DNA of 31,394 nucleotides from a virus. This document shows, in pieces, positions 5,712-31,394 of this stretch. The position numbers and the translations under genes are program-made. Position 1 is the stretch's first letter. Each line of letters begins with the position of its first letter. Below the pieces are notes generated by a model. That model was given only the letters and a program-made list of their open reading frames with translations. It was not told where the DNA came from and searched no databases. The stretch covers positions 1 through 31,394 of IMG/VR virus record IMGVR_UViG_3300049846_003025. One strand, given 5' to 3'.

Positions 5712-6377
5712 TCAAAGACTAAAGGCGATTCGATCAAGGCGATCACTTAAATTCATTATCGGAGCAGTGTCTCCCATTTTGTAGTAAATAGAGCATCGAC
5801 AACGCCCCCCACATTGGCAAGCGTGACCGGGAACCACGACCATTTCAATCGGTAACCACTCCCCATTGGTCGAATAGCCAATGCAATCGGTACAATGTCG
5901 AGCCTGTGGGTCAAGATCTCGTTTTGCCAATTTCACCCCGGCGATCGCCCTCGACAATTGCTCACCCTTATAAAAACTTTTCCGGGTGGATGCCGCATAA
6001 CTACCCGCCCGACTCAATATCCGTTTTGGTGTTAGCTCACCCCTAGAAATTTGATTCGAGAATAAATGAAGGTATCTGTATTCTCTTCTGAGGCTTGCAC
6101 CGACAGCACCAAAGTGAGCGTTAGATACTCTATTCTTGCCACCAGCACCGAGCATGGTCATACGAATATGGGATTCCTTGATCGTTTCTGCCATTCGCTT
6201 TTCCCACTCGGACAGGCTGATTTTTTCGGATAACAATAATCGAGTATGCCCTTGCAACCGGACTTTCAATCGCGCTGATTCCGTATCGACTAATTTCAAA
6301 ACATCGGCACGGGAAACAAAACGCCCTGATTGAGTGTTCCGATATCTACCCGTTTTTGGATTGAAAGTAACCGACAT
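5712..6377 (-). CDS. MuF-like phage head morphogenesis protein
   Basis: 221 residues, with GAGGCTAAATA before ATG 6377. The C-terminal half carries the cysteine-rich signature of SPP1 gp7/MuF minor head proteins: HCTDC (Cys162, Cys165), then PIEMVVVPGHACQCGGRCRC (Cys187, 189, 193, 195). Related proteins show CxxC followed by HPNCRC. They bind portal and are carried in the head, sometimes leaving with DNA. The N-terminal part is helical and basic. The gene follows the portal gene by 36 bp, the usual place. No fused toxin domain is visible. Confidence 0.75.
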   Translation of the reverse strand: MSVTFNPKTGRYRNTQSGRFVSRADVLKLVDTESARLKVRLQGHTRLLLSEKISLSEWEKRMAETIKESHIRMTMLGAGGKNRVSNAHFGAVGASLRREYRYLHLFSNQISRGELTPKRILSRAGSYAASTRKSFYKGEQLSRAIAGVKLAKRDLDPQARHCTDCIGYSTNGEWLPIEMVVVPGHACQCGGRCRCSIYYKMGDTAPIMNLSDRLDRIAFSL

Positions 6378-6413: not shown

Positions 6414-7937
6414 CTACGATTCACCGCTGTCTTCGTATCCTGTTCCGTCACGTTGGCGATCGCCAGCAATTGCAGTTCGCTCATCGGTGGAGTCGTCGTC
6501 TGAAACTTCTCTGGGTTCGGTGTCGTTTTCTCCATTTTCAGTCTGTCCTAATCGTTCAAGTTCATCCTCTACCATCTCCCATGAAATCCCTTTCGGCAAG
6601 CTGTCGCTGCGATAGAGAATTTCATACATAAACGGCAAACTCATTTGACCCATTGCCACCGAGTTATTCAGTTGCTCAAGGGTCATCTGGGTTGTGGTTT
6701 TCAGTAGGGATTTGTTGACGGCGATCGCCCCCGCATCCTCTAACATCAACCCTTCGTACTCTGCAAAGATTGAGAACAAAGACTGTACAGCCGACTCTAA
6801 TTGCACAGCATAACCTGACAACGTAGCTTCACTTTGAGCCGCGTCTAATTCTACTTCTGTTGCTGTTTTTGTTGCGCCGCCACTAAAGAAAGAAACAACC
6901 ATTTTTTGCATCGTTGCCTCAATTAATGCAAGGCAATCTTTCTTTGGCAAGACGCCAGTGCCGACGGGTTCCATCCACCCTCCATCAAGGTTCCACAGGG
7001 TGACTCTAGCCCCGACTGTAACGGACTTATGGCGGCTTGGTTCATCTGGCGCATAAGGCTGTGGCTCCTTAAGCATTAATGTCGGTTCAAGATAATTGAT
7101 CGTGGTTCTGTAGCCACTCCAAACTTGATAATGGGCAAGGTTTAAGTCGGCAAAATCGACCAGTGGGGGAGTTGCCGTAAAGGGTGTGTGACTGTTGAGC
7201 GAAAGTCCGATCAATGGGATTTCTTGTAGCCCGTATTGCCCTTCACGAACCAGTTTCAAATCAACATTTAAAATCTCATCGGCACGGGTATTAATCTGAA
7301 AGCTTTTTCGTTTTTGCCGTTCGTAGATTTGGTAGTCGCCACCACGTCGCAACACAGTATATGTTTCCCACTCGCTTAAGCCAAAATCACCATCAGGCTT
7401 GAGTTCATCCTGTTTATAGACAACTAAATCCAACTCACTGCCATCAAATCGCCAATTGATAATCTGACTGCGTTCTAGAAGCAAAAAGTAAGGGGGTTGT
7501 TCAAGGTTTGGGCGATCCACCAGCACGAAAGACGAACCATCCCGAACCGCCAGACAAACCCATTGTTTTATGAATGACTTTAAATCGTTTCCCAAAAGAT
7601 CGACGTTATCGGTAAAGTCCTCAAACCAGTCTGCAGACTCTGTGAGGTCAAAATCAGTCAGCAATGAGGCAATATCTTTTTCAATGGCATCTCGGAAAAA
7701 ACGAACAAACACCGACTGGGATAGCTGCTCTAAATAACTGGCATTGTCCTGAGACTTGGCTTTAGGCAGGTATCGTAAGGCTTTCTCGCTATCAACAATT
7801 GTCCAATCATCTGCAATCCATCGCCGCCGCCCTTCGTACATATCCTTCAAATACTCTAGAGTTGGCTCGATCTCTCGATAATAAGGATGCCAATAATCAG
7901 GCTTTGAGGGATTGTTATGAAGTGCTTCGGTTGCCAT
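6414..7937 (-). CDS. Portal protein (DUF4055-like)
   Basis: 507 residues. The segment KPDYWHPYYREIEPTLEYLKDMYEG followed by YLEQLSQSVFVRFFRDAIEK, and the late VSFFSGGATKTATEVELDAAQSEATL region, match the general plan of the DUF4055 portal family. Portals form the twelve-membered DNA channel at one capsid vertex and dock the terminase. The gene lies between large terminase and the MuF-like gene. The C-terminal 40 residues are acidic and low complexity (EREPREVSDDD-type composition). The start lacks a clear Shine-Dalgarno sequence. Confidence 0.83.
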   Translation of the reverse strand: MATEALHNNPSKPDYWHPYYREIEPTLEYLKDMYEGRRRWIADDWTIVDSEKALRYLPKAKSQDNASYLEQLSQSVFVRFFRDAIEKDIASLLTDFDLTESADWFEDFTDNVDLLGNDLKSFIKQWVCLAVRDGSSFVLVDRPNLEQPPYFLLLERSQIINWRFDGSELDLVVYKQDELKPDGDFGLSEWETYTVLRRGGDYQIYERQKRKSFQINTRADEILNVDLKLVREGQYGLQEIPLIGLSLNSHTPFTATPPLVDFADLNLAHYQVWSGYRTTINYLEPTLMLKEPQPYAPDEPSRHKSVTVGARVTLWNLDGGWMEPVGTGVLPKKDCLALIEATMQKMVVSFFSGGATKTATEVELDAAQSEATLSGYAVQLESAVQSLFSIFAEYEGLMLEDAGAIAVNKSLLKTTTQMTLEQLNNSVAMGQMSLPFMYEILYRSDSLPKGISWEMVEDELERLGQTENGENDTEPREVSDDDSTDERTAIAGDRQRDGTGYEDSGES

Positions 7938-7978: not shown

Positions 7979-9481
7979 CTACCTACGGTAAGAACCGATG
8001 GCAGCGGATGGGAGTACCTTCGCCGCCTCTTCTACCCATACCCATGTCACAGCAAACGCCATAACAGTATCGTCATTACCTTGCACAGCTTGACGGGTAC
8101 TAGCCAAGAATTGAGATGCTTCTGATGCCCGTTTTGTCGTGCCGTCGCTAAACTCTGAACAAAACTCCCAATCGGGGGGATAAATCACATCTCCGTTTTC
8201 AATGGCGATCGCCACCCTGTCCGTGTTGACCCGTTTCGATACTGAAGAATGGGAGACTTTTTCAACCCGCAGCCCCGGCATTTTTGTTTGTAGATGCTCA
8301 ATTAAAACGATGCCTCCACTATTCGACTCAATGCCTACCAATTGTGGTCTGTAGGCTTTGATAATCTCGATAATCTTGGCTTCGTAATAGGCGTTGGTTT
8401 TTTTGTTTTCCCGATACTGATGGACAAGTTTATAAGGGTATTGAGTCAAATCAAAAACGAGTGCTGTGTAATAGTCTGCACCGCCAAAACTAGGATCTAT
8501 GCCCATCAAATAACGATGGCGTGGTTGTGGGGATTCCCATTGGGCGATCGCCTGTTTTTTGACGCAATCCATGTCGAACAATGACCCGGATTCCTTGGGA
8601 ATCTCCAGATCATATTCTCGTCCTGTCTGTTCCTTGGTAAGTTTTTCTCGGTTCCGAACTACGTCTAAATAATCAGGAATCAAGCAATACATTGGGTGTG
8701 ATTTCCAATGGAGTAAGACCTTGCACCAGCCAGAATTGTCAATCCAGTAATCAACGCCCGCCCCGTACTCACCCCGACCTTCCCTCACCCTAGCAATCTT
8801 CTCTTCGATATCAATATTTGGTGGGCAATCGCCAACAAAAATCTGCCACCACAGAGTCAACGTCCCACCTTTGGGCATTGTTGAAATCAAAACCCTTTTA
8901 GCGCGATCTCCCAACATACTTTGTGATGGCGTAGACGATGCATACAGGCTTTCGAGATTATGGATAAATCCAGCTTCATCAAAGATTAGGCGATCAACGG
9001 ACGGAACACCACGGGCGGCATTTTCTGTTGGGGGATAAAAATATTGATCACCGCCATTGACCGCTTTTAGCCGTTGTCCCGACTGATACTCCCACTCAAA
9101 ACCCCTGAACTGAGGCATATTCCTTGCCCGGTCAGCTAATTTTGATGACTCCTTTTGCCCAATACTAAAAACGACACCTGTATAGGCTGGATTCTGCAAA
9201 GCCTCATGCATGGCATAACACACAGCCGTCTCTGATGCCCCCAATTGTCGCGTCTTGAACCAACAGTGCTTAGGGTATTTTCCCAGTAGCTCACCCAGCA
9301 AAATCTGATAATCGTACAGCTTGAACGGCACAAATTCAGAACCCGACTTGATCTGGCATTGCGCCGCGAACTCCACAAAGTCCGTCGGAATATCGATCTT
9401 TTGCTCTATGCCCCGTCCAATTGTCGGAAGTTTTGCGATCGCCGGAGCCGCAAACCGTGCCAACGTTCTATTTACTTTCAC
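7979..9481 (-). CDS. terL: Terminase large subunit
   Basis: 500 residues from GTG 9481, with AAGGTTTTCA upstream. The ATPase part has a Walker A-like KTRQLGASET (residues 76-85), Walker B RLIFDEA (164-170) and coupling motif STMPKG (200-205). The RNase H-like nuclease part has MGIDPSFGG (Asp329), GIESN (Glu385) and GNDDTVMA (Asp470/471). It cuts concatemers and pumps DNA through the portal. The first 16 residues (MKVNRTLARFAAPAIA) are encoded by a 48-bp sequence repeated 730 bp upstream. So the natural overlap with the upstream coiled-coil gene has been broken by an insertion, and this N terminus may be an added segment. Confidence 0.93.
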   Translation of the reverse strand: MKVNRTLARFAAPAIAKLPTIGRGIEQKIDIPTDFVEFAAQCQIKSGSEFVPFKLYDYQILLGELLGKYPKHCWFKTRQLGASETAVCYAMHEALQNPAYTGVVFSIGQKESSKLADRARNMPQFRGFEWEYQSGQRLKAVNGGDQYFYPPTENAARGVPSVDRLIFDEAGFIHNLESLYASSTPSQSMLGDRAKRVLISTMPKGGTLTLWWQIFVGDCPPNIDIEEKIARVREGRGEYGAGVDYWIDNSGWCKVLLHWKSHPMYCLIPDYLDVVRNREKLTKEQTGREYDLEIPKESGSLFDMDCVKKQAIAQWESPQPRHRYLMGIDPSFGGADYYTALVFDLTQYPYKLVHQYRENKKTNAYYEAKIIEIIKAYRPQLVGIESNSGGIVLIEHLQTKMPGLRVEKVSHSSVSKRVNTDRVAIAIENGDVIYPPDWEFCSEFSDGTTKRASEASQFLASTRQAVQGNDDTVMAFAVTWVWVEEAAKVLPSAAIGSYRR

Positions 9482-9482
9482 T
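9435..9482. repeat. 48-bp direct repeat, copy A (terminase 5' end)
   Basis: It begins with a HIP1 octamer GCGATCGC and ends with TTTACTTTCACT, covering the first 16 terminase codons on the minus strand. Copy B at 10165-10212 differs at two positions (9449 C/A and 9464 C/T), so 46 of 48 bases match. The similarity stops sharply on both sides. The two copies bracket 682 bp of plus-strand genes. Confidence 0.93.
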
Positions 9483-9539
9483 GAAAACCTTATATACCAA
9501 CACTTCTAGGATAGCAGCAAAAAACTTTTAACTAAATGA

Positions 9540-9568
9540 TTGACATCCCTATACGGGTTTGTTATATT
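9540..9568 (+). promoter_or_regulatory. Consensus-like sigma-70 promoter
   Basis: TTGACA at 9540-9545 and TATATT at 9563-9568 are separated by exactly 17 bp. The 67-residue plus-strand gene starts 36 bp after the -10 box, with GAGG at 9592-9595 as its ribosome binding site. This is the best promoter match I saw in the window. It points away from the terminase, so the cassette probably has independent expression, perhaps also in the lysogen. Confidence 0.75.
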
Positions 9569-9603
9569 AAATACATACCACACAAGACAAGCGAGGCAAA
9601 CAG

Positions 9604-9807
9604 ATGACTACTCAAGAAAAAGAAATCAACTTCAACACGGGTATTGTTACAAAAGCCGGAAAATGGGTAGAAAATTCACTTACAGGGGAAGTCCTATCTG
9701 CTTACTACGTTATTGACGAAAGCACGAGATTCAAAACTGACATCGCCTTGCGCGGATTTGACTTTGATTCTTACAGCCTAATTGGTAAGTTATTAGCCAA
9801 CTCTTAA
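9604..9807 (+). CDS. Cassette protein 1, unknown, 67 residues
   Basis: MTTQEKEINFNTGIVTKAGK starts at ATG 9604 with GAGG eight bases upstream and a strong promoter before that. The rest (NSLTGEVLSAYYVIDESTRF, then ALRGFDFDSYSLIGKLLANS) looks like a small compact soluble protein without membrane segments or cysteines. I recognise no family. It lies inside the insertion bounded by the terminase-start repeats and runs against all virion genes. Possible roles are a moron product, an antitoxin-like or an immunity protein; nothing in the sequence decides among these. Confidence 0.7.
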   Translation: MTTQEKEINFNTGIVTKAGKWVENSLTGEVLSAYYVIDESTRFKTDIALRGFDFDSYSLIGKLLANS

Positions 9808-9861
9808 CTCTTCTTTTTTTTACAATTAAAATTGTCTATACTCATGACCAAAGGAGCCACT

Positions 9862-10056
9862 ATGAAGTTAAGAATTTCACCGGAAGAAGCAATCGTTTTG
9901 AGTCAGTTTATTGATTCACTTCGGGAGCAAAATCTCTCAACTAGACAAAAAGAAGAAAAATTAATTGAATACCTAAATACTCACTTTTCTAAGTGTGGCA
10001 CTGTCGCTGAAGGCGACTTTTTCATTATTAACAACGAAAATCTTTTAATTGACTGA
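9862..10056 (+). CDS. Cassette protein 2, unknown, 64 residues
   Basis: ATG 9862 is chosen because AAGGAG at 9851-9856 lies five bases upstream; in-frame starts at 9832 and 9844 lack this. The product starts MKLRISPEEAIVLSQFIDSL and continues with a charged helix (LREQNLSTRQKEEKLIEYLN), then GTVAEGDFFIINNENLLID. It looks mainly helical and soluble. It follows cassette protein 1 by 54 bp and is probably on the same transcript. Its 3' end overlaps, in antisense, the chimeric frame 9981-10211. No family recognised. Confidence 0.65.
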   Translation: MKLRISPEEAIVLSQFIDSLREQNLSTRQKEEKLIEYLNTHFSKCGTVAEGDFFIINNENLLID

Positions 10057-10211
10057 CTGGCATTCTCTTGTAGGTCTGTTACTCGGATTACTTGTTCCGG
10101 GGTTAGATTTCCGCCTTTGATTAGTTTGTTTACCTCTGCATAAATCAATAGTGAGCTTTCAAAGGCGATCGCCGGAGCAGCAAACCGTGCCAATGTTCTA
10201 TTTACTTTCAC
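9981..10211 (-). pseudogene. Chimeric frame carrying a second terminase start
   Basis: The 76-codon frame starts with the same GTG and 16 residues as the large terminase (MKVNRTLARFAAPAIA). It then continues FESSLLIYAEVNKLIKGGNL and TPEQVIRVTDLQE, unlike any part of the terminase, before ending inside the antisense of cassette protein 2. The GTG overlaps the end of the coiled-coil gene by 14 bp, the arrangement expected of the original gene junction. It may be the decapitated start of the old terminase, fused to insert DNA, or a small real protein. I favour a relic, but the helical middle part is protein-like. Confidence 0.45.
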
Positions 10212-10212
10212 T
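10165..10212. repeat. 48-bp direct repeat, copy B
   Basis: This copy matches 9435-9482 in 46 of 48 bases and also begins exactly at a HIP1 octamer. It retains the overlap with the upstream coiled-coil gene (whose stop TAG is at 10198-10200), so it probably marks the ancestral position of the terminase start. Copy A would then be the part moved or duplicated by the insertion. Confidence 0.93.
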
Positions 10213-10599
10213 TACTTTAGGATCTTTAAATTCAGTCTGTTCGTATTCAGAAACAAGATCTATCACTCTCGTTTTCCTAAGTTTTTTGTTTAAGCAATCT
10301 CGCATACTGTCGTTATCTAGCTCTATCAAATGAACATGTCTCTCGATCGCCTTATTCAAAGACTCTACTCTTCTAAGCTGTTCTCTCAAGCCTTTATTTT
10401 GCTCCTCTAACTCAACAATCCTTTTTCTTGTTTCCCAAGATGCCGCATTTTGCTCCTCTAATTCACAAATAGCATCACAAACATCTCTAATGAACGCCAA
10501 ATAAAAACAGACATTGATTTCATTTAGATTTTTCCCCTGTGGCTGCTTTTTAATCTGTTCATCAGTCCACAAAACAAGTCGAAGTAATATTTCATTCAT
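10198..10599 (-). CDS. Coiled-coil protein between the terminase genes
   Basis: 133 residues, MNEILLRLVLWTDEQIKKQ at the start, then a predicted coiled coil from about residue 45 to 105 (KRIVELEEQNKGLREQLRRV). It overlaps the small terminase gene by 8 bp at its start and the duplicated terminase start by 14 bp at its end, so these were one translationally coupled operon. The role is unknown. An accessory packaging protein is plausible from position, but a regulator is not excluded. The ELEEQNAASWETRKR / ELEEQNKGLREQLRR pair looks like a short internal repeat. Confidence 0.7.
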   Translation of the reverse strand: MNEILLRLVLWTDEQIKKQPQGKNLNEINVCFYLAFIRDVCDAICELEEQNAASWETRKRIVELEEQNKGLREQLRRVESLNKAIERHVHLIELDNDSMRDCLNKKLRKTRVIDLVSEYEQTEFKDPKVSESK

Positions 10600-11104
10600 T
10601 TTTGCAGTTCATCTCTTCTAGAAGTTGAGTCACCCCCAACGCCGTCCCCTCAGTTGACTGTGAAGTTTCGGCAAGACGACTTACTAATCCTAGACCCCTG
10701 AACGCTTGATCAAGGGTCATTTTTGCTTTTGGATCTTCCTTGACTGCCAACGATGCTTCATTTACCAACAGTACGACAACCTCAAAAATGGCAGATCCGA
10801 GACGCTTGTTTCGGTCACGGTAAGCCTCTACGTCCTTTTCCCACTTGTCCCGTTTCGTTTTCTCCAAATACTCTAGTCGTCGCCGCTCTTCTTCGGCATC
10901 CCATTCCCGTATCCGTTCTGTCCAGTTAAATTTCCATGCCCATTGGTCTAACGTCTTTCTGTTATTTGTAGGAACCTCTTCGTCTCTCTCGCATTCTACG
11001 TATCTCTCTAAAAGGGCTTTGATCGTTCGACTTGTCCCCATGTCCCGAAAATCCTGAAACGCTTGCCATGCGCGGTCTGTCTCATTTGGGAGGCGATCGC
11101 CCAT
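10592..11104 (-). CDS. terS: Terminase small subunit candidate
   Basis: 170 residues with AGGAGAAAGTT before ATG 11104. Residues about 40-70 read TLDQWAWKFNWTERIREWDA, a W-rich motif common in small terminase or HTH-like proteins next to large terminases, where it follows the DNA-binding helices. A charged helix follows (EERRRLEYLEKTKRDKWEKD), then a C-terminal oligomerisation-like region. Small terminase recognises the packaging site and loads the large subunit. It lies first in the virion operon. The family is divergent, so the assignment rests on this motif plus position. Confidence 0.68.
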   Translation of the reverse strand: MGDRLPNETDRAWQAFQDFRDMGTSRTIKALLERYVECERDEEVPTNNRKTLDQWAWKFNWTERIREWDAEEERRRLEYLEKTKRDKWEKDVEAYRDRNKRLGSAIFEVVVLLVNEASLAVKEDPKAKMTLDQAFRGLGLVSRLAETSQSTEGTALGVTQLLEEMNCKNE

Positions 11105-13792: not shown

Positions 13793-14605
13793 ATGCACCC
13801 GTCCCATGTCCTAGAGTTTCCAGAAGTCGGTATCGCCTTTTCCTATGGCTTTGTCGTGGTATTTTCAGCGATCACCACATGGGCAGCATGGAAGAAAAAA
13901 GTTTGTTTTTTGGCTTGGCTACTGCTGGCAATTGGGGCAATATTCTTTTTCTGTGACCTCAGCTATATCCTGACTGCTATGGGCGCACCCCAATCATGGA
14001 TAAGATTCGAGCATTATTTCGTTGCGTTGTTTGGGACGGTAACGGCTCTGTGCCTTGCCCCTCCATTGGCATTCCGATTTGTAGATTATATTTACGAAAT
14101 GAAAAGATCAGTGCTAATCCGAGATAAAACAGCAAATTTATCGGGGTTTTGCTCTGTGCTAATCCGTTGGGAGTCACAGTCAAAAGCCACTGTCATCACT
14201 GTAAATCAGTCAATGGTTCGCTGGTTCGTTCGGTACGCGATCGCCAGTGCCGAATCCGTCAAACCGGGGGCAAACTGGATTGAGCTACTCCCCCATGAAA
14301 CCGAATGGATTGAGCGGATACAGCAGACTGCCATCGGCGGAAAATCTTGGCGAAACATGGAAACAGCAGCAACGTTTGACGACCAATTAACAGGCTTTAG
14401 CTGGAATATGTTTTTGGTTGATGAAGCTGAAAAACTAATATTAATCGAATGGTACGATTCAACCGCGTTTGTCAGAGGCGTTGAACGGTTGAGATCGGAG
14501 CTAGACGTAGCCGTGGCAGATAACGAGAAACTGAGGGAGTCGAACGCCTCAATTCTCGCCAATCAATTAAAACTCTTGAAGTGTTCGATTTCCGAGGATA
14601 AATGA
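13793..14605 (+). CDS. Membrane protein with possible PAS-like cytosolic domain
   Basis: 270 residues. Three membrane segments are predicted at about residues 13-32 (IAFSYGFVVVFSAITTWAAW), 37-60 (VCFLAWLLLAIGAIFFFC) and 72-93 (YFVALFGTVTALCLAPPLAF). A soluble part at about 125-235 has alternating strands and helices (VITVNQSMVRWFVRY, SWRNMETAATFDDQLTGFSW, KLILIEWYDSTAFVRG) that resembles a PAS-type sensor fold, followed by a coiled coil (RLRSELDVAVADNEKLRES). The next gene overlaps by 4 bp (ATGA). The pair may form a membrane complex. Sensor or exclusion roles are inference only. Confidence 0.6.
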   Translation: MHPSHVLEFPEVGIAFSYGFVVVFSAITTWAAWKKKVCFLAWLLLAIGAIFFFCDLSYILTAMGAPQSWIRFEHYFVALFGTVTALCLAPPLAFRFVDYIYEMKRSVLIRDKTANLSGFCSVLIRWESQSKATVITVNQSMVRWFVRYAIASAESVKPGANWIELLPHETEWIERIQQTAIGGKSWRNMETAATFDDQLTGFSWNMFLVDEAEKLILIEWYDSTAFVRGVERLRSELDVAVADNEKLRESNASILANQLKLLKCSISEDK

Positions 14606-17929: not shown

Positions 17930-18601
17930 CTACAAAATGTGCTGCTTTAATTCATCGTAACGCTGACTAATTAACTGATATTTTTGGGAACCACCTTTTT
18001 TAATGTTCAACAACTCTAAAACTTTGTTTTTGCTCAGTCCTTGGCGGATGCATTGAGTCAAAGTCGCAATATAAGAAGATGGAATTGGAGAAACTCCATT
18101 CCATTGTTCAGAGGGCAGTTTTATTTCCGCCCCCTTTACACCTTCATCTTTGTCACTGTATTCAAAAGATGTTGGAATTAACGCCAAATCTGGAAGAGCA
18201 ATCAATTCTTTTTCTGACTTAATTACAAACTCTTCAAGTCGCGCAACCTTGTTTTCTAATCGATCAACTTCTACAGCCATTGTCAAAGTATCGTTTAGTG
18301 CAGGGGATAAATCTTTAATTAACTGGTTTTCCCATTGAATCAAGACTTCATTGGAGACTCGCAACTCTAGCCAATGAATGTCGACAGCTAGACCAAGTTT
18401 TTCCAGTAAATTGATTTCTGGCTGCCGGTGGTGACTCTTCCATCGTTGAGAAAAATTCTTTGCTTTCCCAATATAAACAAGCTGAGGCTCAGGGGTATGA
18501 GCAACAACAAAATACAGCCCTGACACCTCTGGGAGAAAGTCTTTGTGTTGACACGGAAGTGATGGAAGCGTTAACACTCCGTCTATGCTAATATTAATCA
18601 T
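17930..18601 (-). CDS. GIY-YIG nuclease with C-terminal helical domain
   Basis: 223 residues; CAGG precedes the ATG by seven bases. The GIY-YIG domain covers about residues 20-105: GLYFV (28-32), LVYIGKAKNFSQRWKSHH with YIG at 43-45 and the conserved Arg53, IHWLEL, then WENQLIKDLSPALN with Glu91 and Asn103. Family members cut DNA (homing nucleases, UvrC, repair and restriction enzymes). After an acidic linker the C terminus has TQCIRQGLSKNKVLELLNIK, an HTH-like segment that may bind DNA. It may act in replication or repair, or on competing DNA. There is no intron context here. Confidence 0.83.
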   Translation of the reverse strand: MINISIDGVLTLPSLPCQHKDFLPEVSGLYFVVAHTPEPQLVYIGKAKNFSQRWKSHHRQPEINLLEKLGLAVDIHWLELRVSNEVLIQWENQLIKDLSPALNDTLTMAVEVDRLENKVARLEEFVIKSEKELIALPDLALIPTSFEYSDKDEGVKGAEIKLPSEQWNGVSPIPSSYIATLTQCIRQGLSKNKVLELLNIKKGGSQKYQLISQRYDELKQHIL

Positions 18602-18677: not shown

Positions 18678-20072
18678 TCATTTAATAGACCATGTTTTAT
18701 CACAAGATTTGCATCGATAACGAACTGCTCCAGATGATGTTTTTCCATTTGTGCGCACATCTTTAGAACCGCATTCTGGGCAGTTTTTTGTGTGCATATG
18801 TGCGACGTGTGCCTCTGTGCATTCCAGTGATAGCAAGGATTCTAGCCGATCAACTGTGCTTTGTAGCTCTGTGGCGACAGGCTTTTCGCTTCCACTTTGC
18901 CACCCCGCCAAATTTGCCTTAGAAGGCTGTGTTTTTTTCCATTCACTGAGGTCTGGAACTTCGGCGGGAACAGCGGGGGAATCAGAGCTTAAGTCGCCAA
19001 CAAAAGCAGGGTATTTGACTGTCGAAATGTAACGGCAAACGTTAAGAGCTTGCTCGTAGGCATAAGTCCCTTTTTTTGATTTACTTAAGTTTTGCTCAGC
19101 ATAACTTTTGGCTTTGTTGGCAATCATTACCCATGTTAATTGTTCACGAATTTGCCCCTCACCTTCACAGCCCATCGCCTTAACTTCAGTGCCTTGAACA
19201 AGGGGGATTAAACGAATTTTGACTTTTCGGGCTTCACGCAACAGCTTAAAGGTAAATTCCTTTAGTCCGTCCGTGCCTGCCCATGCGTTAAATTCGTCAA
19301 GAATCACTACTATTTCAGGCTCGCTATCACCCACGAAATTTTGGTCATCATCAATTTGATAGCGACGGTTCATTTCGTGATACAAAGCCACCAAAAAAGC
19401 ACAGGCGGAAATGTTGTATTTCCCAGTTAAAATCTCGGCAAAACCTAGGTGCTTGTACTGTTCGTAATCCTCAACCGTTCCGTAGTTTCGCCCCCATGCC
19501 ACTACTAAATCGGCACTGGTAAATCCACCTTTTTTCCAGTGGGGAGAAACCGCTACAACGATGCCGTCAAAGCAACTCGCTAAATGCTCGGCAAGCCATG
19601 ATTTTCCACCACCTGTTTTACCAGCGATGCCGATATGAGGGAACGCATCGCGGTTTGTGCGGAACTCAGTCCAGTCAAAAGGGGTTACACCCTGTTGACT
19701 TTCGACATCTCCCCAGTCACTAGCCGTTTCGCCATTGCCCTCAGTTTGAGGCACTGGGGTGGCTTGCGGTGGTTGCTGGGGATAAACATGGGCTACCGCG
19801 TCTCTTGCTGTCGCCTCTGTCCAAACACGCTTGTGGTGGGCTTCGTATTTGAGAATTTGGCGATGGTCGTAGATGACCTTGGCGGAGATCGCCGCAGAAC
19901 TTAACGAAGCCACATTCAAAAGTAGTTTGCGCGTCCAGTGCTGGTTGCCATAACTGAAAACTTGAAGAGCGATCGCTACCCCAACAAATCCCCAAGAAAT
20001 GATTTTTGGCTTGTCAAAATCAATGTCATTTCGAGGATTAACAAGGATTTCCCTAGGCAAAGAAACCATCAA
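18678..20072 (-). CDS. Membrane-anchored HerA/FtsK-type ATPase with zinc ribbon
   Basis: 464 residues. Two membrane segments are predicted at about 23-41 and 48-66. The motor domain has Walker A GKTGGGKS (151-158) and Walker B VVILDEF (255-261), followed by VKIRLIPLVQGTEVKAMG (sensor-like region). The C terminus carries a four-cysteine zinc ribbon, CPEC (431/434) and CKSC (454/457), of the kind at the start of IS1-type InsA proteins. The layout resembles DNA translocases of conjugation, filamentous phages or membrane-containing phages. Its start overlaps the small membrane gene by 20 bp. A role in DNA movement across the membrane is inferred. Confidence 0.72.
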   Translation of the reverse strand: MMVSLPREILVNPRNDIDFDKPKIISWGFVGVAIALQVFSYGNQHWTRKLLLNVASLSSAAISAKVIYDHRQILKYEAHHKRVWTEATARDAVAHVYPQQPPQATPVPQTEGNGETASDWGDVESQQGVTPFDWTEFRTNRDAFPHIGIAGKTGGGKSWLAEHLASCFDGIVVAVSPHWKKGGFTSADLVVAWGRNYGTVEDYEQYKHLGFAEILTGKYNISACAFLVALYHEMNRRYQIDDDQNFVGDSEPEIVVILDEFNAWAGTDGLKEFTFKLLREARKVKIRLIPLVQGTEVKAMGCEGEGQIREQLTWVMIANKAKSYAEQNLSKSKKGTYAYEQALNVCRYISTVKYPAFVGDLSSDSPAVPAEVPDLSEWKKTQPSKANLAGWQSGSEKPVATELQSTVDRLESLLSLECTEAHVAHMHTKNCPECGSKDVRTNGKTSSGAVRYRCKSCDKTWSIK

Positions 20073-20295
20073 TCCCTCCTATCAACAAAAGTAGGGCAAT
20101 TGCTCCTAGCAGCATATTTCTATGGAAAGAAATCAATGGAGAAAGAAGCCATGCACTTATGCCAATTGTGGCGACGGCTGCGGCAATGGCTGCGAAGGGG
20201 GCAAAGGTTGCGTGGAAGCCGACCCAGATTGCTGCGAAGGCACGAAGTAATGCTGTCCCTGTTGCAACGGTAATGCCTGTATAGAGTCCGTACAT
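20053..20295 (-). CDS. Small membrane protein, 80 residues
   Basis: The sequence MYGLYTGITVATGTALLRAF continues as AAIAAAVATIGISAWLLSPL and MLLGAIALLLLIGGIDGFFA, giving two or three hydrophobic segments and very few charges. It overlaps the preceding 162-residue gene by 139 bp in another frame and the ATPase gene by 20 bp, so all three are tightly coupled. Size and hydrophobicity would suit a coat-like, holin-like or pore-forming subunit. No family is recognised. The long overlap means one of the two frames could be partly spurious, but the hydrophobic pattern argues this one is real. Confidence 0.6.
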   Translation of the reverse strand: MYGLYTGITVATGTALLRAFAAIWVGFHATFAPFAAIAAAVATIGISAWLLSPLISFHRNMLLGAIALLLLIGGIDGFFA

Positions 20296-20645
20296 GAAGT
20301 CAATTCCTCCATCAATGATTGAGCTTCGGGAGAGTTGAATCCGTGGTTTCTGGCTGCTGCGATCGCCCGATTAGTTGTTTTAATTGTCTGTCTTGCCGCT
20401 ATGTCAAAATATTTTTCTTCATAGCGGATTCGCTCGGTGTTTCTGACGACGTTCAGCCCTGCCCGGTGATATTCTTTTGCATTCAAGAGCAGGGCTTGGG
20501 ACTCCTTTTCGCGGTCGAGCATAGCGATGGTGTTTTCGTCAGAATAGACTTTGCGAAGGCGGGATAGTTCGGTATCGCATACGTTCTGCAAATACCCAGA
20601 CGGTGTAACCCACTTTATTAATTGAGTGGCAAGTTTTTGAAGCAT
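20157..20645 (-). CDS. Charged helical protein with proline-rich tail, 162 residues
   Basis: GGAG precedes ATG 20645 by seven bases. The sequence starts MLQKLATQLIKWVTPSGYLQ. Residues about 25-110 are a charged helix (RKVYSDENTIAMLDREKESQ, ERIRYEEKYFDIAARQTIKT), and the end is Pro/Gln/Ser-rich (PLPPSQPLPQPSPQLA). It lies between two membrane-protein genes upstream of the ATPase gene. The C-terminal tail overlaps the next gene. It could be a peripheral membrane scaffold for the ATPase complex; this is inference. Confidence 0.65.
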   Translation of the reverse strand: MLQKLATQLIKWVTPSGYLQNVCDTELSRLRKVYSDENTIAMLDREKESQALLLNAKEYHRAGLNVVRNTERIRYEEKYFDIAARQTIKTTNRAIAAARNHGFNSPEAQSLMEELTSCTDSIQALPLQQGQHYFVPSQQSGSASTQPLPPSQPLPQPSPQLA

Positions 20646-20672
20646 AAGTGTTCTCCGATGTTGCAGATAAAT

Positions 20673-20960
20673 TTAATTAAGTCCATAGGGATTTTTCTTG
20701 AAAGTTGTAGTCGCAAGCTTTTGCTCAAATCGATTGACAGCTTTTTGTGTGTCTTCCAATAATTCACAGATATCATCAGATTTATCCGCAATTACCGCTT
20801 TTTTGTTTCGCCGCCAACGTTGTTCAAGGATTGCAATAGGAGCATAGGCAGAAAATGGAATAAAGCAGTAAAATGCACGGTGCAAGGGTTGATTTAGCAA
20901 AATAGTCAAGAAAAAACTTACACTCGAAAACCCAAACAATACTTTTAATCCATTCATCAT
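20673..20960 (-). CDS. Small membrane protein, 95 residues
   Basis: The N terminus MMNGLKVLFGFSSVSFFLTI and FYCFIPFSAYAPIAILE give two membrane segments. A basic stretch (QRWRRNKK) and a charged C-terminal helix follow (ICELLEDTQKAVNRFEQKLA). The start overlaps the upstream gene as ATGA with GAGGTGAA as ribosome binding site. Such a hairpin membrane protein with a cytosolic helix fits as a partner of the neighbouring 162-residue protein or the ATPase. No family is recognised. Confidence 0.66.
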   Translation of the reverse strand: MMNGLKVLFGFSSVSFFLTILLNQPLHRAFYCFIPFSAYAPIAILEQRWRRNKKAVIADKSDDICELLEDTQKAVNRFEQKLATTTFKKNPYGLN

Positions 20961-21286
20961 TTCACCTCACAAACCGTTTTTTGAATAGAGTTGATTTGAG
21001 CCGTCAATGCCGCAATTTGCCCGGTCATTTCTGCGTTCTGCTGACTTAATTGCTCGTTAGGAGTTTGGAAGAAACCAACCCCTCGCAAACTTAGAAATAA
21101 ACCAGCCCCGCCAAGACCCAAGAAGACAACGAAAATGACAATCGCAAACACATCTAAAACTGTATCCTTTCGGCTGTTTGGCTGTGAATACTGACTTGGA
21201 CTATGCCCCCTCGGAACGGCGATCACATCATAGGCATCGCATCGATTTAAATAGTCAATTTGGTCTTGTAATTCTGGGTGTTCCAT
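20957..21286 (-). CDS. Single-span membrane protein with coiled-coil tail, 109 residues
   Basis: MEHPELQDQIDYLNRCDAYD is hydrophilic. One membrane segment is at about 45-67 (DVFAIVIFVVFLGLGGAGLF). The C terminus (NEQLSQQNAEMTGQIAALTA) is a predicted coiled coil. It is first of the four small genes leading to the ATPase. The start lacks a clear ribosome binding site. The combination of a cytosolic head, one span and a coiled coil suggests an oligomeric membrane complex component. Confidence 0.64.
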   Translation of the reverse strand: MEHPELQDQIDYLNRCDAYDVIAVPRGHSPSQYSQPNSRKDTVLDVFAIVIFVVFLGLGGAGLFLSLRGVGFFQTPNEQLSQQNAEMTGQIAALTAQINSIQKTVCEVK

Positions 21287-21430: not shown

Positions 21431-21892
21431 TTACTCTGTCACCTGTACGGATGATTCCAGCAACAAAGGGGCATTTTCGCCACCAAAAACGCTGTTAGTT
21501 GCAAACTCAAAAGCACCCATCATTGCCGTTTCTAGATCGTCCATTCTGTCCATCATGATAGAAGAACAAGTCCCATCCGAAAGGTCGGTCATGTACTGGT
21601 GCAGGGCTGCTTCTGCCGTCAAGTTTGTCATTTGACGACCCATCTTAAAGCCAACTTCTTTGGCTTTTTCAACTTGACGTTGAACAGCAGCATTGATCCC
21701 TTTCTGCGCCTTTTGTTGATGCGACTGACCTTGGGATTGAACAAGCTTGGCACAAGCCTCGTTGACCCCTAAACGGTCTTTTGTCATCGCCTGAACAACG
21801 GACTCAATACTAGCCTCGGAAGGCTCAATACCGTGACGAACAAGAGCATCAACGATGGATTGCTTGCGGCTTTCAGAAATTGCAGTAGGCAT
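21431..21892 (-). CDS. Hypothetical helical protein, 153 residues
   Basis: The sequence starts MPTAISESRKQSIVDALVRH and has a helical domain GIEPSEASIESVVQAMTKDR, LGVNEACAKLVQSQGQ that looks like a small regulatory or DNA-binding bundle. A long basic helix follows (KGINAAVQRQVEKAKEVGFK), then a Met-rich acidic part (MMDRMDDLETAMMGAFEFAT). It is second in the early operon, 6 bp after the HTH gene. No family is recognised. Position next to the HTH protein hints at a regulatory or DNA-bound role. Confidence 0.62.
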   Translation of the reverse strand: MPTAISESRKQSIVDALVRHGIEPSEASIESVVQAMTKDRLGVNEACAKLVQSQGQSHQQKAQKGINAAVQRQVEKAKEVGFKMGRQMTNLTAEAALHQYMTDLSDGTCSSIMMDRMDDLETAMMGAFEFATNSVFGGENAPLLLESSVQVTE

Positions 21893-21897
21893 AATTT

Positions 21898-22152
21898 TTA
21901 AATTCCTTTGATACGAATGTCTTCGATTGATTTACTTACAGAAACTTTTTGGTTGCGGAGTTCTGCCATCCTCTGATACACCCTCATTGATTGAGCAGAG
22001 ATGCTTTCCTCATAAGGTTCGTGATCAAATTCTTCAATGTTTGCGGCTCTTAATTTTTTCGCCCATCTACGAATTGTCGGCTTTGAATACCCAAGGGCTG
22101 ATGCCGCAAAATCAAGCGGATACCACTCAACCTCTACTCTTACTGCGGTCAC
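21898..22152 (-). CDS. MerR-like HTH protein, first gene of the early operon
   Basis: 84 residues from GTG 22152, fixed by an excellent Shine-Dalgarno GGAGGTGA at 22160-22167. The sequence EWYPLDFAASALGYSKPTIR RW is a winged-helix-turn-helix of MerR/excisionase type: helix, turn AASALGYS, recognition helix KPTIRRWAKKL. The C terminus is a charged helix (MRVYQRMAELRNQKVSVSKS). It starts the long leftward operon and faces the regulatory gene string across a 175-bp operator region. It may be a Cro- or Xis-like switch protein. Confidence 0.75.
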   Translation of the reverse strand: MTAVRVEVEWYPLDFAASALGYSKPTIRRWAKKLRAANIEEFDHEPYEESISAQSMRVYQRMAELRNQKVSVSKSIEDIRIKGI

Positions 22153-22719: not shown

Positions 22720-22984
22720 TTCGACTCAATTTGTGCAAAAAAAGATTCTTTTGCCCGTTGAATACCCGACCTTATTGCCGTGGCAATACATGGACTTAGC
22801 TGTGAATCATGGATTCACCCAAGAACAAGCAAAAGAGCTTTCTGGCTTTAACCGAGGGACATGGTTCAATTGGCTTTATAGTCAGCAGAAATGCCCTGAA
22901 AAGATCAATCGGGCAATGTTGGAAAAGCTACACAGGATTGCTTGTGACATGGGCTGGATCTCGAAATCTCGGAGCGTGGCGTAA
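22709..22984 (+). CDS. HTH-like protein, 91 residues
   Basis: The sequence MKNNSTQFVQKKILLPVEYP starts 11 bp before the end of the RHH gene. The core LPWQYMDLAVNHGFTQEQAK and ELSGFNRGTWFNWLYSQQK is consistent with a helix-turn-helix, with recognition helix NRGTWFNWLYSQ. The C terminus is basic and helical (RAMLEKLHRIACDMGW). It shares one base with the following start (TAATG). It is probably a third regulator of this string; no specific family is named. Confidence 0.62.
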   Translation: MKNNSTQFVQKKILLPVEYPTLLPWQYMDLAVNHGFTQEQAKELSGFNRGTWFNWLYSQQKCPEKINRAMLEKLHRIACDMGWISKSRSVA

Positions 22985-23562
22985 TGGGCAAGGCATGGAC
23001 ACAAGAAGAACTGGAGACGCTAGAATCTTTGCTTAGTGACTCCAACGGACATGACTTCCCTAAGAGATATCAGAATGCTTGTATTTCGAGGGGGTTTCCG
23101 AAGCGAACAGAAGCGGCAATTCGTTCTCAGGTTTCTATATTGAGAAAAAGAGCCAATCCTGTTGATGACAATTTTTCAGTTGCGTCATTGGCAAGGGTTT
23201 TAGGGCTTAACTCTTCAACTGTCGCAAATTGGGTATGGGACAAGAAAATTAAATTTACGAAAAGTGGGAAATATTGCAAAATCAAACGAGCGGATTTTGT
23301 TGAGTTTGCAAATCATCATCCAGCATTACTGCGAAAAGCTGATCGTGATGCCCTTGCTTATTTCTTGGGAGAAGAAAAAGCGGATTTGTTTAAGCAGATA
23401 GAAAGCCCAAACGACAGAAAACGATTGCGTTACCATGCCCCAGATGGGACAACCCGCGAGTTTGAATCAATATCAGAAGCCGCTCGACAATTGCACCTTA
23501 GTCAAGGCGGAATGAAGTACAGGATCCAAAGTCGCCCTAACGAGTGGGAGATTTTATCCTAA
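22984..23562 (+). CDS. Multi-domain DNA-binding protein (SANT-like, HTH, IENR-like)
   Basis: 192 residues with three segments. Residues 3-55 (WTQEELETLESLLSDS, ISRGFPKRTEAAIRSQVSIL) resemble a Myb/SANT-type domain. Residues 62-110 (FSVASLARVLGLNSSTVANW, KYCKIKRADFVEFANHHP) form an HTH. Residues 140-190 (RYHAPDGTTREFESISEAAR, LHLSQGGMKYRIQS) match the DNA-binding repeat found in phage homing nucleases (NUMOD1/IENR1 type). There is no nuclease motif. It ends the rightward regulatory string and may be a late activator or anti-repressor. Confidence 0.6.
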   Translation: MGKAWTQEELETLESLLSDSNGHDFPKRYQNACISRGFPKRTEAAIRSQVSILRKRANPVDDNFSVASLARVLGLNSSTVANWVWDKKIKFTKSGKYCKIKRADFVEFANHHPALLRKADRDALAYFLGEEKADLFKQIESPNDRKRLRYHAPDGTTREFESISEAARQLHLSQGGMKYRIQSRPNEWEILS

Positions 23563-28336: not shown

Positions 28337-31300
28337 ATGCAAACAAAAGCAAAAAACAATCTTCGCAATGCCGAGCTGCAGGCGATCGCCACGCTTAAAA
28401 CCCTAGGGTTCCGAGAAAATGAGCCATTCATGATTGGTGTTGCCAACTACGCCTTACAGGTAGAGATCAAAGAAGATTGCCTGCTGCTGTGGAAAACAAA
28501 CTGCCCAACAGTGCGGGGCGGAAATTGGACTATAGGGCATCCTATCATTGGGGGGTTTGATCATCTAAGACGTATCGGGGAAAGCGGGAAAAATATTTTC
28601 ATTTTCCCAAATAAGCTCGTCAACGGGATGAGCGATCGCCATGCAACAGAATTTAATACCGTATTCTTCGAGATTGACCCACCCAAGGGCAGCAATATCA
28701 CGGAACAATTGATCGCCAATCGGGAACGCATCAATGCAATTCAGGCACGGGGCTTGCGGTTATCCGCTCAAATCTATTCAGGGAATAAGTCGGATCACAA
28801 CTATTTCCGGTTGTCCTGTGGTGTAAGTTCCGATGTCCACTTAAATTTGCAACGAAAAGCGGCGATCGCCTTTGCGTCTGACCCGGCAATCGTAACCATC
28901 AGCCGTAAGATGCGTTTCCCATGGGTTCCCCGTCGCGTAGGAGATTCTATTCGGGAATGTAAGACAAGGCTCACGGACGCTGTTTACACGCCTTCTGAAC
29001 TTGAACAGTGGCTTGATACGCTGATCAAGGAGCGATACGGTGTACAACCGCCGGAACACATTTCAGAAAATCGATTCAAGGAATACAAGCGCAATTATTT
29101 TGCAGGGCTTGATGCCGAAGAAGTCTGCCATACACTCAACGCTGATGAATGGGAATTTGAGCCAAAACAAGATGACATTGATCTTTCTGACCTCCCCACT
29201 GAGATTTTGCACCCTATCGCCTTAAAGGCTGTGCAAACAATTCCTGAGTCGATCCCCGGTGAAGGCAGCTATGAGGAAATTTACCGTCGGATGTGCGGTG
29301 GACTTAAGCATATCTTTGGTGAGGAGATCGCCGTCCAAATAGCCGAACAACACAGCCCATTGCGAGAAGCCTCCAGTGTTGTGCGATCGCTGAAAGCCTA
29401 TAACGCTGCTTCATTATTCAAGGTAGCCCGTGAGCATGGGGGATTCGTTTGGGACAAAGAAGATGCAAAACGGTTACAGGATTATTTTCATGAAGACATT
29501 CTGCGGCTTTATGACGGATTCAAAGGCAAGGCATTGTCTATCGAATTAGCCCCATTTCGTAAAAAATTTCAGTTACTCGGATGCCCCGATCTTTACTGGA
29601 AAGAAGAGTGCAACGCGATCGCCGCTGAGATCAATGTGTCCCCTGTTTATGGTGCTGATGCAAATTGGTGGAAAGATTATGAGGAAAAGCGTGTCGGACT
29701 GGGGGGATATCGTGGTGAAGGCGAGATCAAAAATGCACCTGAATGGATACGCCAAAACCAGATTATTCCTTGGCTCAATCGCCTAAAAGAGCAAGGAAAA
29801 CGACTTTTTAGCTATGAGCAGGAAGTCAACAATCGCCAACGCATTACACCGGGCGAATTGGTTCATCACAATGGCACAGGTTACATCGTTGAATTTACCT
29901 CGGAACAAGAACGGTTTCGATTGGTCAAGGATGCGCCATCAATGGGCTACAAATGGGTTGTTGACATTTCTGGTACTGGCACGGGCAAAACTCACAATCT
30001 ATTGAGGTTTGGGGAAAAAGGATCAAGGGTTGTTCTGTTCCTGCCAAGCCATCGCAATCCCCATGTGCCGGAGTTGAAAGATTCATTTTTTGAGATGCCG
30101 ACCCGTCACTTGGGAATGTATCGCCACAGCGACAATACGATTCGCAGACATCCAGAAAAGGAAGGTCAGTTGACGATTGAGGATGCCAATTGCCACAAGG
30201 CGAACGAGTTTTTGGAGGCGGCGATCACTGGACGCAATTTAGAGATTGATAGTCCTTGCTTTACCTGTCAATTTCAGGACACCTGCGGTAAAGACCAACA
30301 AAATCGCCCCGCAGGGAGTGGCTTTTTGCGTCATCGATTTCACGCTTTTCAACAACCAAGAGTCAGAGGGCATTTATCACAGTTTGGCGGTGTACCAGAA
30401 GCATTACTAAAAGATCGGATTGCTATAGTTGACGAAGCGTTTTCCCAGATTCAGTCATTTAAAACGATGACCATCAGTATTGATGATGCATTCAAAAAAT
30501 TACGGTTTCTTGAGGCGTTAGACCCCGCAAAGGCTCACCTCATCAAGCCGTTTTTGACCCACATGGAAAAACTAAACAATGAATGCAAGTCGCCTTTCGG
30601 GGTTAGTCACGATGAATTATTTGAAAATGCCCCAAATTCAGACAAATGCCGTTGGGACGCAAAGGCATGGGCGAAGGGAGTGCTAACCGCTGTTGTTGAT
30701 GGCAAAATCAACTGGGATTACGCCAATGACACAGCCTTAGCTGAAGATGCTGGTCAGTCTACCCCATACGAACCCCTAAGCGACATGATCAAGATTTGGT
30801 GTGGCGACAAAGGCAGTATCTCGGTGAAGGATGGGATTGTAACTATCACAATGCCTGACTCTAGTCACATCAATATGCTCAAGAAATTTGAGTCACGATT
30901 GCTGATGGATGCAACGCCAAACTTAAAGCTGTTGGCTCAATCGGCAGGCTGCCAAGAATCTGAAATTTTGGTGATCACCCGTCCGATGCCCGACAACAGC
31001 CGATTGAGCATTACCGCCATCGAAACCCCCGGCACGGGAAGCAGACAAAACCTAAATGAGTCAAAACAGGCACAAGACCGGGTAATGTCTTTGATCGAAA
31101 AAATTAAAGTAGAGCGCGACGCAAACGCACGGGTTATCGGACTCAAGAACTGTCCTATCCCTCATGACGGATACTGGGGCAATCATAGCCGTGGAGATAA
31201 TAGCAATAGCGGCGTTCGTACCCTGATTGCCTACGGACTGCCATACCCCAATCTTGAACAGTCACGGGCTGAATGGAGGGCGATCGCCGGAACACTTGAT

Positions 31301-31394
31301 GGCTTTGAAGCTTACTACGGTCACAAGGTTGCCGCCGAAATTATTCAGGTAGCAGGACGACAACGGGCGCATCGGTACGATGGCGAGTTCAACT
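28337..31394 (+). CDS. Primase-helicase replication protein, CyRepA1-like (partial)
   Basis: ATG 28337, with GAGGAG eight bases upstream, opens a frame that stays open to the right edge (more than 1019 residues, 3' end missing). N-terminal primase-like marks are FFEID (110-114), SGNKSDH (148-154) and DPAIVTISRKMRFPW (from 182), similar to archaeo-eukaryotic primases of plasmid replication proteins. The helicase part has Walker A GTGTGKT (546-552), a DEAF box (699-702), MDATPN, and motif VI QVAGRQRAHR (from 1004). Four cysteines (619, 641, 644, 650) lie between Walker A and DEAF. It resembles cyanobacterial CyRepA1 plasmid replication proteins in plan; the name is provisional. Confidence 0.8.
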   Translation, partial: MQTKAKNNLRNAELQAIATLKTLGFRENEPFMIGVANYALQVEIKEDCLLLWKTNCPTVRGGNWTIGHPIIGGFDHLRRIGESGKNIFIFPNKLVNGMSDRHATEFNTVFFEIDPPKGSNITEQLIANRERINAIQARGLRLSAQIYSGNKSDHNYFRLSCGVSSDVHLNLQRKAAIAFASDPAIVTISRKMRFPWVPRRVGDSIRECKTRLTDAVYTPSELEQWLDTLIKERYGVQPPEHISENRFKEYKRNYFAGLDAEEVCHTLNADEWEFEPKQDDIDLSDLPTEILHPIALKAVQTIPESIPGEGSYEEIYRRMCGGLKHIFGEEIAVQIAEQHSPLREASSVVRSLKAYNAASLFKVAREHGGFVWDKEDAKRLQDYFHEDILRLYDGFKGKALSIELAPFRKKFQLLGCPDLYWKEECNAIAAEINVSPVYGADANWWKDYEEKRVGLGGYRGEGEIKNAPEWIRQNQIIPWLNRLKEQGKRLFSYEQEVNNRQRITPGELVHHNGTGYIVEFTSEQERFRLVKDAPSMGYKWVVDISGTGTGKTHNLLRFGEKGSRVVLFLPSHRNPHVPELKDSFFEMPTRHLGMYRHSDNTIRRHPEKEGQLTIEDANCHKANEFLEAAITGRNLEIDSPCFTCQFQDTCGKDQQNRPAGSGFLRHRFHAFQQPRVRGHLSQFGGVPEALLKDRIAIVDEAFSQIQSFKTMTISIDDAFKKLRFLEALDPAKAHLIKPFLTHMEKLNNECKSPFGVSHDELFENAPNSDKCRWDAKAWAKGVLTAVVDGKINWDYANDTALAEDAGQSTPYEPLSDMIKIWCGDKGSISVKDGIVTITMPDSSHINMLKKFESRLLMDATPNLKLLAQSAGCQESEILVITRPMPDNSRLSITAIETPGTGSRQNLNESKQAQDRVMSLIEKIKVERDANARVIGLKNCPIPHDGYWGNHSRGDNSNSGVRTLIAYGLPYPNLEQSRAEWRAIAGTLDGFEAYYGHKVAAEIIQVAGRQRAHRYDGEFN

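Follow-up and report, generated by a model that had tools for sequence, protein, structure and literature searches.

A Cyanobacterial Plasmid-Type Membrane ATPase Cassette in a Putative Tailed Phage-Plasmid: A Candidate One-Motor System for DNA Transfer

Why should a tailed phage carry a tightly coupled set of small membrane-protein genes that leads directly into a membrane-anchored DNA motor? This question is raised by IMG/VR virus record IMGVR_UViG_3300049846_003025, which we analyzed in its entirety (31,394 bases, hereafter the window); the record is classed as linear, and records of this type are often fragments. An earlier note on this DNA had pointed to four small genes followed by an HerA/FtsK-type ATPase gene between positions 18,678 and 21,286, and had argued that a tailed phage does not need such a set, a view that our analysis supports. 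By sequence comparison, we find that the cassette is of a cyanobacterial plasmid type and not a phage assembly module, and that the genome around it appears to be a tailed phage-plasmid. With regard to function, we consider the chances about even that this plasmid cassette in a phage-plasmid is a one-motor system for the transfer or spreading of double-stranded DNA (dsDNA), resembling the TraB and Spd proteins of Streptomyces.

The five open reading frames (ORFs) described earlier were all recovered on the minus strand at the positions first given, and the overlaps of 4, 139, and 20 bp hold for the ORFs as such. Since a Shine–Dalgarno site (AGGAGG) lies 5 nt 5′ of ATG 20069, we place the start of the ATPase there and not at the TTG that opens the longer ORF (20072–18678, 464 amino acids, aa). 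The protein then comprises 463 aa, and the final overlap is 17 bp. Likewise, the 80-aa gene, although it shares 139 bp with the 162-aa gene, is supported by a GGAGGA motif approximately 10 nt 5′ of ATG 20295. With a threshold mean hydropathy of at least 1.6 over 19 residues, hydrophobic spans were detected in the 109-, 95-, and 80-aa proteins and at residues ∼23–42 of the ATPase. The 162-aa protein has no such span and ends in a proline-rich tail, so that the reading of at least three membrane proteins and one proline-rich tail among the small genes stands. The operon probably begins further upstream, at 22152, and would then extend from 22152 to 18678. We include an 84-aa helix-turn-helix (HTH) gene and a 153-aa gene because their homologues occur in the same order on L061, a 13,463-bp contig that has overlapping ends and is therefore a circular plasmid. 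Thus, the five genes of the earlier note are present, but the set is larger. The cassette and the gene following it are listed here, with counterparts from L061 and from plasmids of Annamia.

21898–22152, minus strand: 84-aa HTH protein with a GTG start, first cassette gene and probable regulator; weak HTH matches in Pfam; L061 has a homologue of equal length at the corresponding position (E = 1.6e-6, small search set).
21431–21892, minus strand: 153-aa soluble protein, second gene, function unassigned; homologue in the same position on L061 (1.8e-17 and 2.8e-15), no family match in profile searches.
20957–21286, minus strand: 109-aa protein with a single membrane span at residues 46–64 (hydropathy 2.65) and a C-terminal coiled-coil-like segment; one-span positional counterparts of 87 aa in L061 and 70 aa in Annamia.
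20673–20960, minus strand: 95-aa protein with an N-terminal membrane span (hydropathy 1.86) and then a basic/coiled tail; 4-bp overlap with the preceding gene, no homologue in our searches.
20157–20645, minus strand: 162-aa helical protein with a proline-rich tail; positional counterparts only, of 162 aa (Annamia pANN4383.01), 164 aa (pANN4383.04), and 111 aa (L061), with no significant sequence similarity to it.
20053–20295, minus strand: 80-aa polytopic membrane protein (hydropathy 2.23; GGAGGA site), directly upstream of and overlapping the ATPase; counterparts in L061, pANN4383.01, and pANN4383.04 overlap the ATPase start by 10–11 bp.
18678–20069, minus strand: membrane-anchored FtsK/HerA-type ATPase, 463 aa, with the motifs and the zinc ribbon described below.
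17930–18601, minus strand: GIY-YIG nuclease-like protein downstream of the ATPase (Pfam GIY-YIG, 1.8e-6; L061 homologue, 2.9e-27).

The assignment of the last large cassette gene to the FtsK/HerA class of DNA motors is based on motifs and family profiles, which agree with the earlier description; the N-terminus carries the membrane span(s). Numbered from the ATG, the protein contains Walker A (GKTGGGKS, 150–157), Walker B (VVILDE, 254–259), the R281···Q292 pair of the FtsK/HerA superfamily, and an EGEG motif. Conservation among 39 relatives is high at K157 (97%), E260 (97%), R282 (100%), and Q293 (92%; numbering from the TTG). DUF87 (HerA) matches 16 of 29 family members and FtsK_SpoIIIE nine of 29, the window ATPase by itself scoring below the Pfam cut-off for DUF87 (17.7 vs 23.2). 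Searched with a profile of five ATPase sequences, FtsK is the top solved structure (1.4e-5). A wide profile (A6) contained one sequence that is probably a genuine FtsK_SpoIIIE protein (L070) and was rebuilt without it; the resulting 20-sequence profile (A7), which holds no strong FtsK member, returns FtsK as the top-ranked DNA motor (2.6e-10), outscored by the multi-P-loop protein midasin through summed sites. The widest profile also matches the conjugative ATPase TcpA (1.8e-7). As in FtsK and SpoIIIE, the Walker and R···Q motifs are combined with an N-terminal membrane anchor and a C-terminal DNA-binding domain beyond a linker. Unlike these proteins, the cassette ATPase is much smaller, carries other end domains, and is plasmid-borne.

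The C-terminus is the most variable part of the family. In the window ATPase it is a four-cysteine zinc ribbon at residues 429–461 (NF050000, 39.6 bits vs the NCBIfam cut-off of 28). By inspection, relatives swap this ribbon for a winged-helix-like domain or a tetrahelical HTH that follows a Pro/Gln-rich linker. A model of the tetrahelical HTH built from 11 tails finds the same domain at the end of further ATPases outside the model set. The C-terminus of the GIY-YIG protein looks similar to this domain by eye; when tested, the likeness was not significant. The ATPases of the Annamia dubia plasmids pANN4383.01 (AP025631, 23751–25154) and pANN4383.04 (AP025634, 1886–3253) have near-identical N- and C-termini and a strongly different motor core. 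Such a pair is a direct sign of modular exchange and suggests that domains were exchanged between co-resident plasmids.

The distribution of this ATPase is that of a plasmid gene. Searches by tblastn place the family on 26 cyanobacterial plasmid records in all, with carriers in Annamia, Pseudanabaena, Allocoleopsis, Planktothrix, Tolypothrix, Calothrix, Moorena, Leptolyngbya, and Nostoc PCC 7524 (pDU1). The window ATPase matched pANN4383.01 with 35% identity (E = 1e-51) and plasmids of Pseudanabaena and Allocoleopsis as well; the L061 ATPase as query found 19 plasmid records, and a further search found 13, pDU1 included. Of 386 cyanobacterial genomes sampled, 20 contain the family, mostly on plasmid-sized contigs. 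No match was found in 50,697 phage records, so the gene set, which the earlier note had proposed to look for in both places, is on plasmids and not in that phage collection. The window ATPase as a single query gave no matches in IMG/VR or in the genome collection; an ATPase alignment brought in five loci from genomes and one phage. A second alignment yielded L079 alone; its match falls within a reading frame of 1,419 aa, and we set it aside. No other IMG/VR record contains a 27-base exact pattern from the cassette. Another virus record (L011, IMGVR_UViG_3300037504_000611, 8056–10891) holds an actin-like (ParM-type) gene, a 98-aa gene, and an ATPase relative adjoining tail genes; on these actin-like and tail labels, which come from sequence inspection, it is apparently another phage-plasmid with a similar motor.

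The carrier plasmids normally encode a large Rep protein and ParA or ParM beside the cassette. On L061 the order of genes is HTH, 153-aa homologue, single-span protein, helical protein, 80-aa polytopic protein, and ATPase with the same zinc ribbon, the last two overlapping by 10 bp; the genes for Rep, ParA, and GIY-YIG are located elsewhere on this plasmid. Between L061 and the window, homology is clear for four genes (HTH, 153-aa, ATPase, and GIY-YIG). The smallest replicon of interest is pDU1, the classic shuttle-vector replicon, which measures 6,361 bp. Because the cassette takes up one of the largest operons of this plasmid, we conclude that it is useful to a minimal replicon. Two chromosomal copies, L054 (655–10314) and L066, combine Rep (DUF3854), small genes, the ATPase, and a tyrosine integrase, and these gene sets resemble the integrative conjugative elements of the Streptomyces (actinobacterial) type. 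The window shares the motor family and the small upstream genes with pDU1 and other CyRepA/DUF3854 plasmids of cyanobacteria. Unlike those plasmids, on which no virion genes are annotated, it adds a tailed-phage structural block in its left part, on the minus strand, together with a plasmid-type Rep gene.

3402–4337, minus strand: major head protein, in the phage structural block.
6414–7937, minus strand: portal, in the same block.
7979–9481, minus strand: terminase large subunit (TerL); Terminase_6C, 4.3e-10.
28337–31394, plus strand: large protein resembling the Rep of cyanobacterial plasmids, truncated at the contig end; 85 plasmid records matched by tblastn.

The genera listed for these 85 records are cyanobacterial, and the closest relatives of the TerL belong to phages of Cylindrospermopsis (39% identity) and Nodularia (30%). 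With terminase, portal, head protein, and plasmid-type Rep on one contig, the window has the gene content of a phage-plasmid. Its G+C content is uniform along the whole length and offers no hint of recent foreign insertion or of a chimera, which the record may still be. No integrase was seen among the window proteins scanned. The nested element named in the earlier note is supported as a candidate.

Do the small genes belong to the ATPase? Counting the four nearest co-directional upstream genes, we found a small membrane protein at 27 of 39 ATPase loci, which are not fully independent. The controls were the 253 other genes on these contigs that encode 200 aa or more, and 44 of them had such a neighbour (odds ratio 10.7, p = 1.4e-10). 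Three small-gene families could be defined: one of 66 aa in 10 loci, one of 49 aa with membrane and coiled-coil character in five, and a polytopic one of ∼245 aa in six, these counts including some sequences from which the models were built. When all reading frames of the loci were searched, every match to the three families lay upstream of the ATPase and in line with it. Hence, where the earlier note would have given up its reading on finding the ATPase always alone or the small genes unconserved, we find the ATPase in the company of small genes across cyanobacterial plasmids. The small membrane proteins of the window itself have no detectable sequence similarity to their counterparts in L061 and Annamia. 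Within other ATPase subfamilies, the small genes are conserved; across subfamilies, the membrane proteins lack detectable similarity. The Spd proteins of Streptomyces are likewise diverse and partly membrane-embedded (PMC4170104). The small genes belong with the ATPase.

After assigning the motor and its partners, we turned to the question as to what they may do. An element-specific dsDNA pump appears to be the best explanation because an anchored motor whose DNA-binding end can be exchanged is found, together with membrane proteins of its own, on small plasmids that for the most part already encode Rep and Par. The N-terminus of the ATPase would anchor the motor in the inner membrane, where it could assemble as a hexameric ring and pump the double-stranded DNA of its element. 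The exchangeable C-terminal domain, here the zinc ribbon, would probably read a site on the element, as the end domains of FtsK and TraB do. The small membrane proteins, translated just ahead of the motor, would form or recruit a channel in the membrane or septum. Most likely, such an assembly would serve to carry copies of its element into other cells or along the filament, with neither a relaxase nor type IV secretion. DNA transfer, one of the candidates of the earlier note, is supported to this extent.

There is precedent for such a mechanism. TraB is the sole protein needed for primary transfer in Streptomyces, acts on dsDNA, and works on ∼10-kb plasmids, and spread across septa requires both TraB and the Spd proteins (PMC5365140, PMC4170104). 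The cyanobacterial cassettes resemble the transfer regions of pIJ101, pSVH1, and pSAM2 in that one FtsK-class membrane motor resides on small plasmids or integrative elements, accompanied by several small, diverse, partly membrane-embedded gene products, with Rep and integrase genes nearby, no relaxase or type IV secretion system (T4SS), and multicellular hosts. They differ in that the hosts are Gram-negative cyanobacteria, that the small genes precede the motor, and that the window protein has a zinc ribbon in place of the FtsK-gamma winged helix with which TraB reads its recognition sequence (TRS) repeats at clt; some relatives are winged-helix-like by inspection. The likeness would be one of mode of action, and we do not file the cassette as TraB because the C-terminal domain differs and clt repeats were not found. 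A second precedent for a donor motor without T4SS is TdtA, the transjugation ATPase of ICETh1 in Thermus, which is also a membrane ATPase of the FtsK/HerA superfamily carried by a mobile element (PMC5365140). Unlike the cassette ATPases, beside which no such gene was seen, TdtA (568 aa, HerA-like) has a NurA-family neighbour. Judged on the features tested, the ATPase is not a member of the TraB, VirD4, or packaging-ATPase families.

Several observations weigh against a transfer function. Two AlphaFold predictions were poor (mean predicted local distance difference test scores of 50.6 and 48.6), and Foldseek lists from these low-confidence models, which we did not use, rank AAA+ proteins level with FtsK. 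The ATPase lacks an FtsK-gamma domain, and a repeat search near the window cassette revealed no convincing clt-like array. The host of L061 may be unicellular. The window lacks the ends of the contig and may be only part of a phage-plasmid. Two comparisons speak for transfer instead. Mobility typing classed 0 of the 26 carrier plasmid records as mobilizable or conjugative, compared with 72 of 230 CyRepA1 plasmids (p = 1e-4), a difference that weakens to p = 0.04 once the carriers are collapsed to nine genera and that counts non-independent records (10 of 26 from Planktothrix) with plasmid size uncontrolled. The same dependence affects the comparison of host types, in which we take the named carrier genera to be all filamentous and at least 53 of the 230 background records to stem from presumably unicellular genera. 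Both statistics are suggestive only. As a separate observation on repeats, TTGTCTATA-type repeats cluster at 5862–6350 of pDU1 (L072), where they surround a small gene for a 117-aa protein and form a possible partition or motor-reading site.

The cassette could instead be a membrane-tethered segregation or stability module that positions or distributes the plasmid, or clears it through the closing septum at division, with no transfer to other cells involved. FtsK-class motors do move DNA across septa, pDU1 carries the cassette while its annotation contains neither ParA nor ParM, and spdA2 of pIJ101 influences stability as well (PMC4170104). However, many carriers already have a ParA or ParM of their own, which would make a second partition motor redundant, and we regard this explanation as unlikely.

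We find it rather improbable that the cassette serves surface or entry exclusion or defence, with a HerA-type ATPase and membrane effectors, in the window perhaps joined by the GIY-YIG protein downstream of the ATPase, blocking competing elements or phages. HerA-like ATPases are frequent in defence systems, and PADLOC reports the window ATPase as mad8 of MADS (3.3e-8) and, weakly, the HTH protein as mad1 (0.0024). The mad8 match reflects common P-loop motifs; the model (PDLC04140) is unspecific, matching 194 of 194 cyanobacterial genomes at E ≤ 1e-10 and 14 of 14 control genomes, that is, all 208 genomes tested. No further MADS component was present among the neighbours tested, and we rejected a MADS/HerA assignment. 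On L061 the GIY-YIG homologue is unlinked to the ATPase (opposite strand, ∼3 kb from the cassette), and this protein is probably accessory, not part of the core. The N-terminal anchor, the Rep/Par neighbourhood, and the swapped DNA-binding ends fit a motor for the element's own DNA.

It is hardly probable that the ATPase, instead of acting alone, is a coupling protein delivering DNA to type IV secretion or pilus machinery of the host or of a co-resident element. The match of the wide profile to TcpA, the FtsK-like membrane motor of the conjugative Clostridium perfringens plasmid pCW3, speaks for this possibility, as does the annotation of one relative, which assigns it to a type IV conjugative transfer family. 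But TcpA serves a T4SS-like system (PMC5365140), and none is annotated on the carrier plasmids, all of which are typed as non-mobilizable. Because neither a relaxase nor VirB4 is annotated on the carriers examined (the window genome being incomplete), we do not assign the ATPase as a T4SS coupling protein.

A phage-specific role as membrane-phage packaging ATPase, DNA ejection aid, or lysis cassette is very improbable: the cassette does lie within a phage genome, the 80-aa protein is holin-like in size, and the 109-aa protein has a weak, in our judgment non-specific, match to Rz-like spanins (0.001), but the genome already has a tailed-phage TerL, portal, and major head protein where a packaging ATPase of that kind would replace the terminase and accompany the corresponding capsid genes, the operon lacks an endolysin, the gene set occurs on plasmids without annotated virion genes or lysins, and seven of seven plasmids with a related TerL have no family member (five-sequence profile). 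Packaging and lysis were discarded on these grounds, and with them the likeness to phage morphogenesis drawn in the earlier note.

The seven plasmids with full-length relatives of the TerL (query 9481–7979) merit separate mention. These small cyanobacterial plasmids of 13.8–26.8 kb (L081–L087: AP018286, NC_014535, NC_019679, AP018305, NZ_CP026691, AP018215, and AP018306) have a large Rep-like gene and no annotated capsid genes, and a protelomerase or telomere resolvase is encoded by three of the seven. As a group, they resemble plasmid satellites open to packaging by a phage. Elsewhere in the window, nucleotide-metabolism genes and a RusA-like resolvase occupy the middle, and a large repeat-bearing protein, tail fibre-like by eye, is encoded near 24–27 kb. 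A 192-aa protein (22984–23562) combines an excisionase-like HTH with DNA-binding repeats of the NUMOD/homing-endonuclease type, and no nuclease domain was found in it. A 270-aa protein (13793–14605) has several apparent membrane spans and no family match.

Taken beyond this locus, the transfer reading would mean that cyanobacteria possess a relaxase-free and T4SS-free one-motor system for dsDNA, which differs from TraB in detail, is encoded by a modular cassette on many "non-mobilizable" plasmids including the laboratory plasmid pDU1, disseminates its elements among cells or within filaments, and was acquired by a tailed phage-plasmid. This wider proposal is tentative, and we would sooner expect it to fail than to hold in full. 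Our literature search, with most subscription papers outside its scope, returned nothing relevant on transfer of the TraB/FtsK type on cyanobacterial plasmids and no description of the cassette. If the cassette is TraB-like, it would explain how small cyanobacterial plasmids without relaxase move, and one-motor conjugation would extend beyond Actinobacteria and Thermus. A tailed phage-plasmid would thereby gain a second, capsid-free route of spread in a filamentous host. Should the cassette serve stability instead, it is still a conserved backbone module of these plasmids.

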